From: Candidatus Acidulidesulfobacter diazotrophicus
GTDB lineage: Bacteria > SZUA-79 > Acidulodesulfobacterales > Acidulodesulfobacteraceae
DNA: 64,000 bases
Assembly (NCBI GenBank): GCA_004195025.1
Contig: SGBB01000012.1
Span: 1 to 64,000, forward strand
Direction of reading: 5' to 3'
Made by a program: the position numbers and the translations under genes. Shown here piece by piece: positions 55,969-63,635 of this stretch. How positions within the stretch are numbered: position 1 is the stretch's first letter; each line of letters starts with the position of its first letter. Under the pieces are notes generated by a model that made no database searches, was not told the DNA's origin, and was given only the letters and a program-made list of their open reading frames with translations.

Positions 55969-56397
55969 ATGTCTAAATCATTAAAAGGTACAAAAACTTT
56001 AGAAAACTTAAAAACTGCATTTGCAGGTGAATCTCAAGCAAACAGAAGATATTTATATTTTGCTAAACAAGCTGATACAAACGGAGAGTCTGATGTCGCC
56101 AATAATTTTAGAGAAACGGCAGAGGCTGAAACAGGACATGCATTCGGTCATATTGATTATTTAAAGAAATATGAAGGCGGGGATCCCGTAACAGGCAAAC
56201 CCATTAGCACCATAAAAGAAATGTTAGAATCAGCCGTTGCAGGTGAAACTTATGAATATACCGAGATGTATCCCGGGTTTGCCAAGACTGCAAAAGAAGA
56301 AGGTTTTGATGATATTGCAGTATGGCTTGAAACACTTGTTAAGGTAGAAAAATCACATGCAGATAGATTTCAGAAAGTGCTTGATAACTTAAAATAA
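55969..56397 (+). CDS. rbr: Rubrerythrin, ferritin-like domain only
   Basis: This 142-residue protein has the diiron ligands in two ExxH pairs (AFAGESQANRRYLYFAK, ETAEAETGHAFGHIDYL, EMYPGFAKTA, LVKVEKSHADRF). The C-terminal rubredoxin domain of classical rubrerythrin is absent, as in many anaerobes. It reduces peroxide and protects oxygen-sensitive enzymes such as CooS. GGAGG precedes the ATG. Confidence 0.92.
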   Translation: MSKSLKGTKTLENLKTAFAGESQANRRYLYFAKQADTNGESDVANNFRETAEAETGHAFGHIDYLKKYEGGDPVTGKPISTIKEMLESAVAGETYEYTEMYPGFAKTAKEEGFDDIAVWLETLVKVEKSHADRFQKVLDNLK

Positions 56398-56569
56398 TCA
56401 TGATTATTTTGGCAATGTAACTTTTTTAGAAACTTCATAGTATGTATTTCTCTGATACATTAGAGAGTTGCATAGTTGCATACGATACTATATGTAAATA
56501 ATATTTATTTGAGTGTAGAGGATATTACTATTAGCTGAACGGTAATTTTAACTTTGAGGATTAAATTAT

Positions 56570-58126
56570 ATGTTTAAACAAGGATTAGATCCCAAAAGCA
56601 TTTATGAATTTAAAATAAAAGATATTAATTTTTTAGATGAAAAAAATCTTTTTAATGAAATTAGAAGAGTTTATTTAAAATGCATTAGTTGCAGGATTTG
56701 TATAGGTTTTTGTCCATCTTTTCCGGCTCTTTTTAATGCGTTCGACAATAAAGACGGCGATATGAATGCTTTAACCGATAATGAGCTCATTAATCCGCTT
56801 GATTTATGTTTTTATTGCAAGCAGTGCTATTTTAAGTGTCCTTTTACCCCTCCGCATGAATGGCGGATAGATTTTCCTCACTTGGCTTTGAGATATAAGG
56901 TTTTCAGATTTAAAAAAGAAGGAGCTAAAATTCAAGACAAATTACTTCTTGACACCGATAAAATGGGTAAAAGGTCTGTTCCGTTATCGCCCGTGATTAA
57001 TAAACTTAATAATTTTCCGCTTTTTCGTTCACTTTTAGAACCTCTAATGGGGATTGACAAAAGGGCAAAAGTTCCTTCATTTAACAAGGTTACTTTCGAA
57101 AAATGGTTTTACGATAATTATAAAAAACCATCAAGTTTATCGGGCTCTAACGATGTTTTTAAACCTAATCCGCTAAAAACTATTAATAGCAGTTATGATA
57201 AAACTGATAATGCAATAAATAAAGAAATAAATAAAGAAATAAATAAAGAAATAAATAAAGAAATAAATAAAGAAATAAATAAAGAAATAAATCCAAAAAT
57301 CAATAATAGCGATAAAGGTAATAATAGCGTTAATATAAACGATAATAATATAAGCAATAACATTACAAATAATAATAATACAAACAACAATAATAATAAT
57401 ATAAGTAATAGCGACAAGGCAGTTCTTTTTTATACCTGTATGATTAATTATAATTTTTTAGATAGAGGCATAGCTTTAATAAAAGTTTTGGAGAAAAACG
57501 GCATAAATATTGAACTTCCCGATGTGCAGTGCTGCGGCATTCCTTATTATGATATAGGCGATATTGAAAGTTCTATTCAAAAAGCTAAATTCAATGTGAA
57601 AAGCCTGAAAAGATATGTAGATAAAGGGTATGACATAATAGTTCCCGTACCGACATGCGCTATGCAAATAAAACATGAATATCCTCTTTTACTCCCTGAT
57701 GACGATGATGTTATTGCGGTGGCAAATAAAACTTATGATGTGCATGAATATTTATTCCATTTATATGAAAACGGAAAATTTAATATGGATTTTAAAAAAC
57801 CTATGGGCAAGATTGTATATCATATTTCCTGCCATTTGAAATCTTTGAATGTAGGATATAAGGCGTTATCGCTTTTAAAGCTTATTCCTCAAACAGAGAT
57901 AACAGTCATTGAAAAGTGTTCCGGGCACGACGGCACATTTGGAGTGAAGAAAAAAACTTTTAATTATGCCGTTAATGTCGGTAAAAGTTTGTTTGAAGAT
58001 ATAAATTCAACGAATGCCGATTATTATGTGTCCGATTGTCCGTTAGCCTCCGATCAGATAGAAATGGGAACGGGGAAAAAGGTAATGCACCCTTTAGAAA
58101 TTTTATACAAATCGTACATGGGTTAG
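56570..58126 (+). CDS. Fe-S oxidoreductase with CCG domains (GlpC/HdrD-like) and NKEI repeat insert
   Basis: The protein has 518 residues. Two [4Fe-4S] motifs are near the N-terminus (CISCRICIGFCPSFP, CFYCKQCYFKCPF). There are two CCG-type domains (DVQCCGIPYY near 325; EKCSGHDGT and DCPLASDQ near 455-485), as in GlpC and HdrD. Between them lies a low-complexity insert, NKEI repeated about six times and then Asn-rich (about residues 215-282). Such proteins often sit beside rubrerythrin and may supply it with electrons. TAG is used as the normal stop. Confidence 0.85.
   Translation: MFKQGLDPKSIYEFKIKDINFLDEKNLFNEIRRVYLKCISCRICIGFCPSFPALFNAFDNKDGDMNALTDNELINPLDLCFYCKQCYFKCPFTPPHEWRIDFPHLALRYKVFRFKKEGAKIQDKLLLDTDKMGKRSVPLSPVINKLNNFPLFRSLLEPLMGIDKRAKVPSFNKVTFEKWFYDNYKKPSSLSGSNDVFKPNPLKTINSSYDKTDNAINKEINKEINKEINKEINKEINKEINPKINNSDKGNNSVNINDNNISNNITNNNNTNNNNNNISNSDKAVLFYTCMINYNFLDRGIALIKVLEKNGINIELPDVQCCGIPYYDIGDIESSIQKAKFNVKSLKRYVDKGYDIIVPVPTCAMQIKHEYPLLLPDDDDVIAVANKTYDVHEYLFHLYENGKFNMDFKKPMGKIVYHISCHLKSLNVGYKALSLLKLIPQTEITVIEKCSGHDGTFGVKKKTFNYAVNVGKSLFEDINSTNADYYVSDCPLASDQIEMGTGKKVMHPLEILYKSYMG
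57214..57291 (+). repeat. Coding 12-bp tandem repeat (NKEI)
   Basis: AATAAAGAAATA repeats about six and a half times inside the Fe-S protein gene. The unit is a multiple of three, so copy-number change would not shift the frame. Confidence 0.9.
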
Positions 58127-59746: not shown

Positions 59747-60067
59747 TAAATAAATTTCTATAGAAGGATTAAAACTTTCTACTGCGCCGTTTGAAACAAT
59801 TATATAAAAAAACTTTGGTTTGCCCAATTTAATATTTTAATGTTATATTAGTATTATAGTATAGTATTATAAGTATTATAGTATTATAATATTGATAAGA
59901 AAAAATTTAAATTATAAAAGTTTATTTTTTTGGATGGGCTAAATATTCTCGTCCATGCCCCGCCCTTACAATTTTATAAAATATATATTAAATTATAATA
60001 TGTCCATTGTACAAGGGTTAATGTTGTATTATTCGCTTGTAATATTTTATACATTATTATACATATA

Positions 60068-60231
60068 TAATTATATAAAATATATATATAGTTTTTTTTA
60101 ATCTATTATAATTATATAAAATATATATATAGTTTTTTTTAATCTATTATAATTATATAAAATATATATATAGTTTTTTTTAATCTATTATAATTATATA
60201 AAATATATATATAGTTTTTTTTAATCTATTT
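60068..60231. repeat. Four 41-bp tandem repeats upstream of the regulator
   Basis: The unit ATTATAATTATATAAAATAT followed by ATATATAGTTTTTTTTAATCT occurs four times almost without change, ending 18 bases before the ATG at 60249. Each unit carries TATAAT-like boxes and a T8 tract. 41 bases is close to four helical turns. Confidence 0.9.
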
Positions 60232-60248
60232 TTTGTAAATATAAATAA

Positions 60249-60953
60249 ATGGAAACTATTAGCAGTTTTTCAAATATTGGATTAGTTTTACTTTCATCAG
60301 ATCTTAAAGTTGTCGGCATGAACGATTTTGCCAGAAATATTTTAGGTCCTGCAATGCAAGGGTTAGATAAAAATGTATTTCAATATCATTCTCGTAAAAG
60401 CCAGCTAAAAATCAAAGGTGTCCTTGATGAATCCCAAATGCATCAATCCGATATTTCCACTACAATGGTTATTGATGTATTAAGCAAGGTATTAATGATT
60501 AATGTTTGCAAGGTTATACAGGGAAAACCTTCTTCAGAACCTATATATGTTATGTCATTTTTAGATGTAACCAATCAGGTAGGGGCAAAGACAAGTCCGC
60601 AATCGGGATTAATGGAGTTAAAGAAATTACCTGTTCTAAGCAAAGGTTCATTTCAGTTTTTAGATATAGGGTCTATATATTTTATTCAGTCGGATGGAAA
60701 TTATTGCAAAATATTTACGGAAACCAGATGGTTTCATCTTCATTTTACCTTAAAAAATATTCTCAAACGGTACGTAGGCAATAAATTTTTTTTGGTGCAT
60801 AAATGTTTTATCGTAAATACCGATCATATAGAGAGAATAGAACAGGATTTTCATGGACACATGAAGATAGTCTTTGATAAAAGCACTGTTCCTTTAGTTC
60901 CGGTAAGTCGCCGAAAGATGCATGCGCTAAAGAATATTCTTAGTATTGCATGA
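60249..60953 (+). CDS. PAS-LytTR transcription factor, RcoM-like CO regulator
   Basis: The protein has 234 residues. An N-terminal PAS domain (about 5-112) is joined to a LytTR DNA-binding domain (about 130-232; IYFIQSDGNYCKIFT, FFLVHKCFIVNTDHIERIEQ, VPVSRRKM). This is the architecture of RcoM, a heme CO sensor. His47 in YHSRKSQLKI sits where RcoM has its heme His, and Met73 or Met83 could be the second ligand. The cooF-cooS operon begins 200 bases downstream, behind two LytTR boxes. CO sensing is inferred from architecture and neighbours. Confidence 0.75.
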   Translation: METISSFSNIGLVLLSSDLKVVGMNDFARNILGPAMQGLDKNVFQYHSRKSQLKIKGVLDESQMHQSDISTTMVIDVLSKVLMINVCKVIQGKPSSEPIYVMSFLDVTNQVGAKTSPQSGLMELKKLPVLSKGSFQFLDIGSIYFIQSDGNYCKIFTETRWFHLHFTLKNILKRYVGNKFFLVHKCFIVNTDHIERIEQDFHGHMKIVFDKSTVPLVPVSRRKMHALKNILSIA

Positions 60954-61016
60954 TTTATATAATTTATGCGGCTATAAAAATAGACTTATAACAATAACCC
61001 CGATTACATAATTAAA

Positions 61017-61077
61017 ACCGTTTATCAAACATAATTTACCGTTTATCAAAAAATTATTTACTTGAAATTAATATAAT
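61017..61077 (+). promoter_or_regulatory. LytTR direct-repeat operator and coo promoter
   Basis: ACCGTTTAT occurs at 61017-61025 and 61038-61046, 21 bases (two turns) apart. Both match the LytTR-box consensus. TATAAT follows at 61072-61077 with no good -35 box, so the proximal site lies where an activator would contact polymerase. The cooF gene starts 78 bases later. Confidence 0.75.
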
Positions 61078-61155
61078 GGAATAATTTTATTATGCAATAA
61101 ACTATTATGCAATAAACAATGATAATTAGACAAAAATAGAGGAGGGTGATTTAGA

Positions 61156-61719
61156 ATGAAAGAAATCTTTATTGATATAGAAAGATGTACTGCTTGTAAG
61201 TCATGTGAGATTGCCTGTGCAGTCGAGCATTCCTTATCTAAGGATCTCTTTTCAGCCATTTTTGAAAATCCTTTACCCATAAAAAGGGTTTATGTTGAAA
61301 AAGCTTTTTTGTTTTCATATCCTGTCAAGTGTATGCACTGCGCAGATGCCGCATGTATAGCAGCCTGCCCTACGGGCGCAATGCATAGGAATCACGAATT
61401 TGGAAGCGTTGTCGTTAATACCGATAAATGTATGGGGTGCTGGATGTGTGCGATGGTCTGTCCTTTTGGCGCAATTATTCCGGATTACGCAGTGAAGACG
61501 GCACGGAAGTGTGATTTCTGCCCCGATAGGTTAAAAGAAGGAGGAAAACCTGCCTGTGTTGAGGCATGTCCCACTAGTACCATTACTTTTGGCGAGATGA
61601 AAGACCTTTTTAAATCAAAAAGATTGTTATCGGCAGAAAGAGTTGTAAAAGCTGTTTTGGTTCAGGAAGATAAGAAAGTTACGCCGCTGGAAATGTTAAG
61701 AAGCATAGAAAATATTTAA
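61156..61719 (+). CDS. cooF: CooF-like ferredoxin, electron partner of CO dehydrogenase
   Basis: This 187-residue protein has four [4Fe-4S] cysteine sets: CTACKSCEIAC, CMHCADAACIAACP, CMGCWMCAMVCPFG and CDFCPD...CVEACP. It carries electrons from CooS to a hydrogenase or other acceptor. GGAGGGTG precedes the ATG. cooS follows after 14 bases. Confidence 0.9.
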   Translation: MKEIFIDIERCTACKSCEIACAVEHSLSKDLFSAIFENPLPIKRVYVEKAFLFSYPVKCMHCADAACIAACPTGAMHRNHEFGSVVVNTDKCMGCWMCAMVCPFGAIIPDYAVKTARKCDFCPDRLKEGGKPACVEACPTSTITFGEMKDLFKSKRLLSAERVVKAVLVQEDKKVTPLEMLRSIENI

Positions 61720-61733
61720 AAAGGAGGAATAAA

Positions 61734-63635
61734 ATGTCAATGAAAACTTTTGACGCGGTTACACAAAGCTTGATAAATAGAGCAGAAGCGATGGGAATAG
61801 AAACGGGTATAAACAGGTTAGAGTCTCAGTTGCCGCAGTGCGGATTCGGTCAGCTTGGTTCCTGTTGCCGTATATGTTATATGGGTCCTTGCAGGATAGA
61901 CCCTTTCGGAGAAGGCGCCTCAAAAGGCGTATGCGGAGCAACTGCCGATGTTATCGTGTGCAGGAATCTATTAAGAGAAGAAGTCGGAGGTGCGGCATCA
62001 CATGTAGGTCACGCAAGGCATGTAGTACTTGCTTTTCAAAAAATGCTGGAAGGAAAAGCTCCGGGATACAAAATAACGGACAGAAATAAGTTGATGGATA
62101 TAGCCTTGAGACTTGGAATTAAAACTGAGGATAAGTCCGATATTGAGATCGGTAAGGAAGTAGTCGGTAAAGCATTGGAAGATATATCCAATCAAAATGG
62201 GGAACCAATGAACTGGCTTAAATTAAGTGCGCAAAGCAGGGAATTTGAGATGTGGAAAGAACAGGGTATCTTAATATCTAATGCCCATAATGAAATTGAA
62301 GAGGCAATGCACAGGACATCAATGGGCAATGACGCCGACCCTGTTAATCTGCTCCTTGCCTGCCTTAAAATGGGGCTTGTAGACGGCTATGCAGGGCTTC
62401 ATATGGCAACGGATTTTCATGATATTTTGTTTGGCACGCCTCAGATTACAACCGTAGAAGCAAATATAGGCGTTCTAGATAAAGATAAGGTCAATATAGC
62501 TATACACGGGCATAACCCAGTGCTTTCGGAAAAGATATTGGAATGGGCTTTTAAAATGAAAGAAGAAGCTAAAAAAAGTGGCGCGCTTGATATAAATGTC
62601 GTCGGCGTTTGCTGTACGGGCAATGAACTTACAATGAGGCATGGCGTTCCCTTAGCCGCGCATAATTTGCAATCGGAGCTTGTTCTTATCACGGGAGCCG
62701 TAGATGCCATGGTTGTAGATATGCAGTGTATATGGCCGTCTTTAGCAATGATAGCAGAATGTTTTCATACAAAACTTATTACTACCGAGCCTTTTGTGAA
62801 AATACCCGGCGCTATTCATGTGCCTTTTGATGTTGAACATGCCGATGAAGAGGCAAAAAATATCGTGATGATGGCTATAGATTCTTTTAAAGAAAGAAAA
62901 GGGGAGGATGTGCATATACCAAAAGAAAAATCCGTTGGCTTTGTAGGATTTTCAGTAGAAGCAATAGTCGATATGCTTAAAAAAATTGATTCGTCAGATC
63001 CTCTAAAACCTATAGTAGATAATATTGTCAATGGAAATATCTATGGAGTGGTCGGTTTTGTCGGCTGTCCCAGTATAAAGCTTAGAGATACATTTATGAC
63101 GGAAAAGATGACGAAAGAGCTTTTAAAAAATAATGTGCTTGTCGTTACTACGGGATGTACGGCTCAAATATGTATTCAGGCAGGATTAATGGACTCATCT
63201 GCCACTGATAAATATTGCGGGGAAGGACTAAAAACCGTATTACACGCGCTTGGAAAGGCTGCAGGGTTCGATGTGCCGCTGCCTCCTGTCTGGCACATGG
63301 GCTCTTGTGTTGATAACGCAAGGATTGGAACTTTGCTTGGTGCATTGGCAGATAGAATAGGCGTAAAAATAAGTCAATTACCTGTTGCAGGATCTGCACC
63401 CGAGCTTGTTCAAGAGAAGGCTATATCTATAGGGACATGGTTTCTTGCCCTCGGGCTTCTTGTGCACATAGCGCCAAGTCCCAGAATTTTAGGAAGTCCG
63501 GTCGCTACAAATATATTAACAAAGGATTTAGAAAATATTACCGGCGGTAAAGTGTATGTTGAATTAGATCCTATAAAGGCAGCGGCTGGAATTATTTCGC
63601 ACATAAAACATAAAAGAACGGAGTTAGGTATTTAA
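61734..63635 (+). CDS. cooS: Anaerobic Ni-Fe-S carbon monoxide dehydrogenase
   Basis: This 633-residue protein has normal CooS length. The B- and D-cluster cysteines are in CGFGQLGSCCRICYMGPCRI. The C-cluster ligands are around GHNPVLSEKI, VGVCCTGNEL, GFVGCPS, TTGCTAQ and MGSCVDNAR. It oxidises CO to CO2. The ACS-linked subunits are not in the window, and no cooC or cooJ is seen before the window ends. Confidence 0.95.
   Translation: MSMKTFDAVTQSLINRAEAMGIETGINRLESQLPQCGFGQLGSCCRICYMGPCRIDPFGEGASKGVCGATADVIVCRNLLREEVGGAASHVGHARHVVLAFQKMLEGKAPGYKITDRNKLMDIALRLGIKTEDKSDIEIGKEVVGKALEDISNQNGEPMNWLKLSAQSREFEMWKEQGILISNAHNEIEEAMHRTSMGNDADPVNLLLACLKMGLVDGYAGLHMATDFHDILFGTPQITTVEANIGVLDKDKVNIAIHGHNPVLSEKILEWAFKMKEEAKKSGALDINVVGVCCTGNELTMRHGVPLAAHNLQSELVLITGAVDAMVVDMQCIWPSLAMIAECFHTKLITTEPFVKIPGAIHVPFDVEHADEEAKNIVMMAIDSFKERKGEDVHIPKEKSVGFVGFSVEAIVDMLKKIDSSDPLKPIVDNIVNGNIYGVVGFVGCPSIKLRDTFMTEKMTKELLKNNVLVVTTGCTAQICIQAGLMDSSATDKYCGEGLKTVLHALGKAAGFDVPLPPVWHMGSCVDNARIGTLLGALADRIGVKISQLPVAGSAPELVQEKAISIGTWFLALGLLVHIAPSPRILGSPVATNILTKDLENITGGKVYVELDPIKAAAGIISHIKHKRTELGI

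Follow-up and report, generated by a model that had tools for sequence, protein, structure and literature searches.

The pairing of an RcoM-type regulator with anaerobic coo genes was reportedly first described in 2008. RcoM genes beside anaerobic coo genes have been published for Geobacter, Pelobacter, Rubrivivax and Deferribacter (PMC4703632, PMC4257681, PMC6896113); in the accessible parts of these sources, RcoM control of the anaerobic coo genes of Geobacter, Rubrivivax and Deferribacter is proposed from the gene neighbourhood and no operator is reported. As a result of these published neighbourhoods, the reason for interest put forward in a preliminary description of the locus studied here, namely that an RcoM type beside an anaerobic CooS is notable, does not hold, and the novelty of this combination was rejected on the basis of the literature.

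The DNA analysed (the window: 64,000 nucleotides, positions 1 to 64,000 of contig C12 of Candidatus Acidulidesulfobacter diazotrophicus; assembly of 47 contigs and 2.46 Mb, 98% complete) shares with RcoM-1 and RcoM-2 of Paraburkholderia xenovorans LB400, the regulators of aerobic cox genes, the succession of heme-PAS and LytTR domains in the regulator, the residues corresponding to His74 and Met104 and the position beside CO-oxidation genes. The window RcoM deviates from the LB400 proteins by its sequence (28% identity), the absence of Cys94, the putative target (Ni,Fe CODH instead of coxMSL) and a candidate operator of two ACCGTTTAT-type boxes, whereas the characterised RcoM-1 operator consists of three TTCNNGCA repeats. 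At the locus this triple operator is absent and two ACCGTTTATCAAA boxes are found instead; such an operator difference is not a defining trait of the RcoM protein family. A canonical RcoM (His, Cys and Met present) was also observed directly upstream of Mo-type coxM-coxS-coxL in a Nitrospirota genome (L026, 5968-10759).

The rcoM-cooS-cooC-cooF-FNOR loci of Geobacter sulfurreducens and Deferribacter autotrophicus, compared by their published description, likewise carry an RcoM-type gene directly upstream and need no CooA, but differ from the window order (cooF-cooS-FNOR-nicO, no cooC nearby). Their arrangement was recovered in four genomes of another order, whose CooS proteins are 41-47% identical to that of the window. 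The operon of C. hydrogenoformans CODH-IV (6ELQ), the closest solved CooS, contains CooF and FNOR partners as in the window; in contrast, it comprises cooF, FNOR and rubrerythrin genes with no RcoM reported, and the window operon lacks rubrerythrin and is accompanied by nicO. Operators of the PlnC/PlnD and AgrA type are built alike, from a pair of 9-bp direct repeats that are separated by 12 bp and precede a promoter, an arrangement required for binding in the case of PlnC/PlnD (PMC2714321), although these proteins are phosphorylated quorum-sensing response regulators, unlike the gas-sensor-type regulator of the window.

Layout of the locus and proposed function

Table 1. Features of the rcoM-coo locus (window coordinates unless stated otherwise)
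Feature	Position	Strand	Basis
rcoM, 234-aa single-component regulator	60249..60953	+	ORF, Pfam, homology, predicted fold
rcoM domains: N-terminal PAS-type heme domain (predicted), C-terminal LytTR	aa 1-112; aa 137-231	+	
His47 codon	60387..60389	+	aligned with heme ligand His74 of P. xenovorans RcoM
Met73 codon	60465..60467	+	aligned with CO-replaceable heme ligand Met104
LytTR-type box 1, ACCGTTTATCAAA	61017..61029	+	exact 13-mer, conservation
LytTR-type box 2, ACCGTTTATCAAA, 21 bp from box 1	61038..61050	+	exact 13-mer, conservation
Probable core promoter region, two candidate readings	61057..61085	+	promoter scan
cooF, 187-aa ferredoxin-like CODH electron carrier	61156..61719	+	
cooS, 633-aa Ni,Fe CO dehydrogenase	61734..63635	+	TIGR01702; closest solved relative 6ELQ
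FNOR, FAD/NAD(P) oxidoreductase, 386 aa	63637..64000 (start; continues past window end)	+	
nicO, 342-aa NicO nickel transporter, 3' of FNOR	contig C12 65063-66091		

The gene order given earlier (PAS-LytTR reading frame, box pair, cooF-cooS, flavoprotein gene) was confirmed on the sequence. The intergenic region between rcoM and cooF measures 202 bp and the gap between FNOR and nicO 265 bp; no cooC-like ATPase gene was found between rcoM and nicO. Judged from the sequence comparisons, the locus is well supported as an anaerobic CODH operon under RcoM control, with a candidate operator that is conserved. Since sensor, conserved candidate operator and complete target operon lie together within about 6 kb and no CooA was found, the locus offers a convenient test case.

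We regard it as probable that the locus forms a local RcoM-family CO switch, in which the CO-bound regulator on the box pair activates cooF-cooS-FNOR. According to this reading, a b-type heme in the PAS domain would be held between His47 and Met73, and the latter would be displaced by CO; through its LytTR domains, the dimer would thereupon attach to both ACCGTTTATCAAA boxes, spaced by two helical turns a short distance ahead of the cooF promoter, and RNA polymerase would be recruited, so that cooF-cooS-FNOR and probably also nicO would be transcribed. CO would be oxidised by CooS and the electrons passed via CooF and FNOR towards NAD(P), with nickel supplied by NicO. The binding of heme and CO, the recognition of the boxes by RcoM, activation rather than repression and the use of low CO concentrations are the parts of this scheme that we infer.

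The regulator and its putative heme ligands

In the regulator, the LytTR domain was detected by Pfam (PF04397, E 2e-19), and the PAS domain was missed by Pfam, NCBIfam and a sequence search of the PDB. The AlphaFold2 model (mean pLDDT 80) predicts a PAS fold at the N-terminus with the PAS strand-helix pattern; Foldseek matched the model to AgrA-type LytTR domains and to the heme-PAS domains of FixL and Ec DOS, the first structural PAS matches being to the O2 sensor FixL. A profile search of 84,980 genomes returned 29 relatives of the regulator, among them both RcoM genes of P. xenovorans LB400 (chromosomes 1 and 3; E 2e-17 and 3e-17, query aa 9-233), the alignment with the characterised protein running end to end (about 28% identity). 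The kinship with RcoM proposed in the preliminary description is thereby borne out. In a search for RcoM in 386 broadly sampled genomes, the matches were to LytTR only. In all three genomes of the family having RcoM, rcoM adjoins CO-oxidation genes, with cooF-cooS-FNOR downstream. By sequence and predicted fold, membership of the 234-aa protein in the RcoM family is well supported.

Residues 74, 94 and 104 of the LB400 RcoM are His, Cys and Met (numbering verified). When the regulator was aligned with them, His47 and Met73 fell on the heme ligand positions His74 and Met104, as had been anticipated for His47 and a methionine; both residues are invariant in an alignment of 26 sequences. An equivalent of Cys94, which we take to be the ferric-state thiolate ligand of P. 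xenovorans RcoM-2, is absent from the regulator, this column being occupied by Met or Thr in the window lineage; to our knowledge, Cys94 is not required of all RcoM members. In the AlphaFold2 model, two PAS helices flank His47, and Met73 lies where the following strand begins, a placement as would be expected for a heme sandwiched between them. Met104 is an established heme ligand of RcoM (PMC9670170). An AhbD-like heme synthase is encoded in the genome (full length, near-full score, E 7.5e-148) and would provide a route to the predicted cofactor of the regulator.

The coo-linked RcoM-like proteins of the four rcoM-cooS-cooC-cooF-FNOR loci from the other order (L119, L120, L121 and L122) keep the heme His and have Lys in the Met104 column; the Lys-bearing alignment contains a 2-residue gap, and no Met is present at the expected place. 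Going by these sequences, this group may use a different distal ligand. The PAS domains of these four proteins are 16-21% identical to that of the window, compared with 31% for LB400; together with the Met versus Lys difference, these values place the window sensor domain nearer to the cox-linked RcoM type. Which of the coo-linked RcoM proteins use Met as a CO-replaceable ligand is a question that this Met/Lys split makes testable.

Enzymes of the operon

CooS is a full-length CODH (TIGR01702, 699 bits against a cut-off of 478), in which the Cys and His residues at what we take to be the cluster ligand positions of CODH-II are all conserved in the alignment. Its closest solved enzyme is 6ELQ (747 bits versus 648 for CODH-II), i.e. 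ChCODH4, the CODH-IV of C. hydrogenoformans (PMC10979024), an enzyme characterised in the title of its report as O2-resistant and CO-scavenging. RcoM proteins bind CO at nM levels (PMC9670170), and the pairing of such a sensor type with a scavenging enzyme suggests that trace CO is used. It is conceivable, although on balance doubtful, that a cox-type heme RcoM (with the His74 and Met104 equivalents) was recruited to an anaerobic CODH-IV-like operon, where a two-box LytTR operator would take the place of the three-repeat RcoM-1 site. On this view, the compact, high-affinity switch would serve the scavenging of trace CO and would stand apart from the Lys-bearing RcoM-like proteins of other anaerobic coo operons.

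Upstream of rcoM, a rubrerythrin gene (55969-56397) and a gene for a cysteine-rich (CCG) Fe-S protein are located at 55969-58126; their order is kept in the genome of a close relative (G006).

The relationship of CooS to an enzyme titled O2-resistant would also agree with a heme PAS domain that answers mainly to the redox state or to oxygen/NO, the operon then being a CODH-IV-type oxidative-stress module. A link to oxygen detoxification has been drawn for FNOR clusters, and the rubrerythrin gene and the first structural PAS matches to FixL point in the same direction; however, rubrerythrin is encoded outside the operon, the distal Met73 matches RcoM, whose Met104 is replaced by CO, and the nearest characterised homologs are CO sensors. 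A redox or oxygen response is thus considered unlikely in comparison with the CO switch.

Box pair and promoter

The box pair noted earlier was confirmed with its distance of 21 bp, but the boxes are longer than first stated, being exact 13-mers. Their arrangement (9+12+9 bp, period 21) is the direct-repeat layout of LytTR sites; when the intergenic region was shuffled 20,000 times with its dinucleotides preserved, just 7 of the shuffled sequences contained an exact run of at least 13 at a period of 20-22. With the sequence that we presume to be the LytTR consensus, a search of both strands of the window found this pair alone with a 12-bp spacer, 0.07 being expected.

TATAAT without a -35 box, as previously described, is indeed present at 61072-61077; the promoter scan, however, favours TTTACT-17-AATAAT at 61057-61085 instead, with a score at chance frequency. 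In G012, the genome of a different genus of the same family (RcoM 82% identical), 3 bp are inserted between the boxes and the TATAAT equivalent. In view of the chance-level scan preference and this 3-bp shift, the assignment of the -10 element is weak; the core promoter is given in two candidate readings. With TATAAT as -10, the box centres would be situated near -40 and -61.

In this case box 2 would come close to the -35 position, as would befit a regulator that represses PcooF until CO relieves the repression. This mode of action is known from CoxC of Afipia, a CO-responsive LytTR repressor whose repeats overlap the -35 box; yet the sensor of CoxC is a membrane MHYT domain instead of a heme PAS, activation from a site upstream of -35 is the mode of RcoM and of most LytTR regulators, and the lack of a good -35 at PcooF fits an activator-dependent promoter. 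Repression relieved by CO is therefore held to be improbable, and activation by the CO-bound regulator is preferred.

For the boxes themselves, the strongest evidence is their conservation across genera at the sequence level. The orthologous cooFS operon of G012 also has the box pair upstream: all 26 box bases are kept there, compared with 111 of the 187 remaining intergenic columns (59%; Fisher p 5e-6). According to the tandem repeat search, the 21-bp repeat unit takes in part of the spacer, so that the pair may owe its origin to a local duplication event; the spacers have since diverged and the boxes have not. A perfect 15-bp tandem duplication, TATTATGCAATAAAC, was observed between the boxes and cooF (61088-61117), with a single copy in G006. 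An origin of the boxes by chance or by neutral tandem duplication, or their use by another regulator with RcoM acting elsewhere, is very improbable: the 78% A+T of the intergenic region, this second exact duplication and the extension of the 21-bp repeat into the spacer would suit it, but the box bases were retained across genera while spacers and flanks drifted, the pair is the sole one of LytTR consensus in the window with no other good pair in the genome, and the genome holds one LytTR gene only.

The genome search for paired boxes, proposed earlier as a check, yielded the rcoM-cooF pair as the sole exact one; degenerate pairs occurred at the frequency of a reversed-pattern control, and a wider box regulon was rejected. 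No such pair was found at six other cooS loci examined, and no ACCGTTTAT pair upstream of cooS in the four rcoM-cooS-cooC loci of another order.

Genomic context

The rcoM gene is the sole LytTR gene in the genome. Full-length CooS is restricted, among the 30 genomes compared within the family, to G000, G006 and G012, and RcoM is present in exactly these three. A CooA gene that would explain the regulation, the counter-explanation named in the preliminary description, was not found in the 98% complete assembly: the single CRP-HTH protein resembles other CRP/FNR proteins (2e-17) more closely than CooA (7e-12), and CooA elsewhere in the genome was rejected on the basis of these E-values. Among the orthologs, none of the three refuting conditions named in the preliminary description was borne out.

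On contig C26 (25988-26428; locus L019, 9489-9929), rcoM codons 1-82 are present with 91% DNA identity to the window copy and are followed without a gap by the final 186 bp of nicO (91%); cooF, cooS and FNOR are missing. As the truncated rcoM is joined to the nicO end, this segment was interpreted as a deletion remnant and not as a working copy, and a second CO locus on this contig was rejected; the remnant corresponds to the loss of about 5.4 kb from a homologous, diverged copy of the CO island. Upstream of it (L019, 9370-9405), 34 bp show 85% identity to part of the coo promoter region of G012, a sequence likeness hinting at a shared or rearranged promoter.

Ahead of the intact rcoM, an A+T-rich unit of 41 bp is repeated perfectly in tandem, with four copies (60066-60230), and the array ends 18 bp before the start codon; fewer copies are present in the G006 assembly, and the repeat could affect rcoM expression or be neutral.
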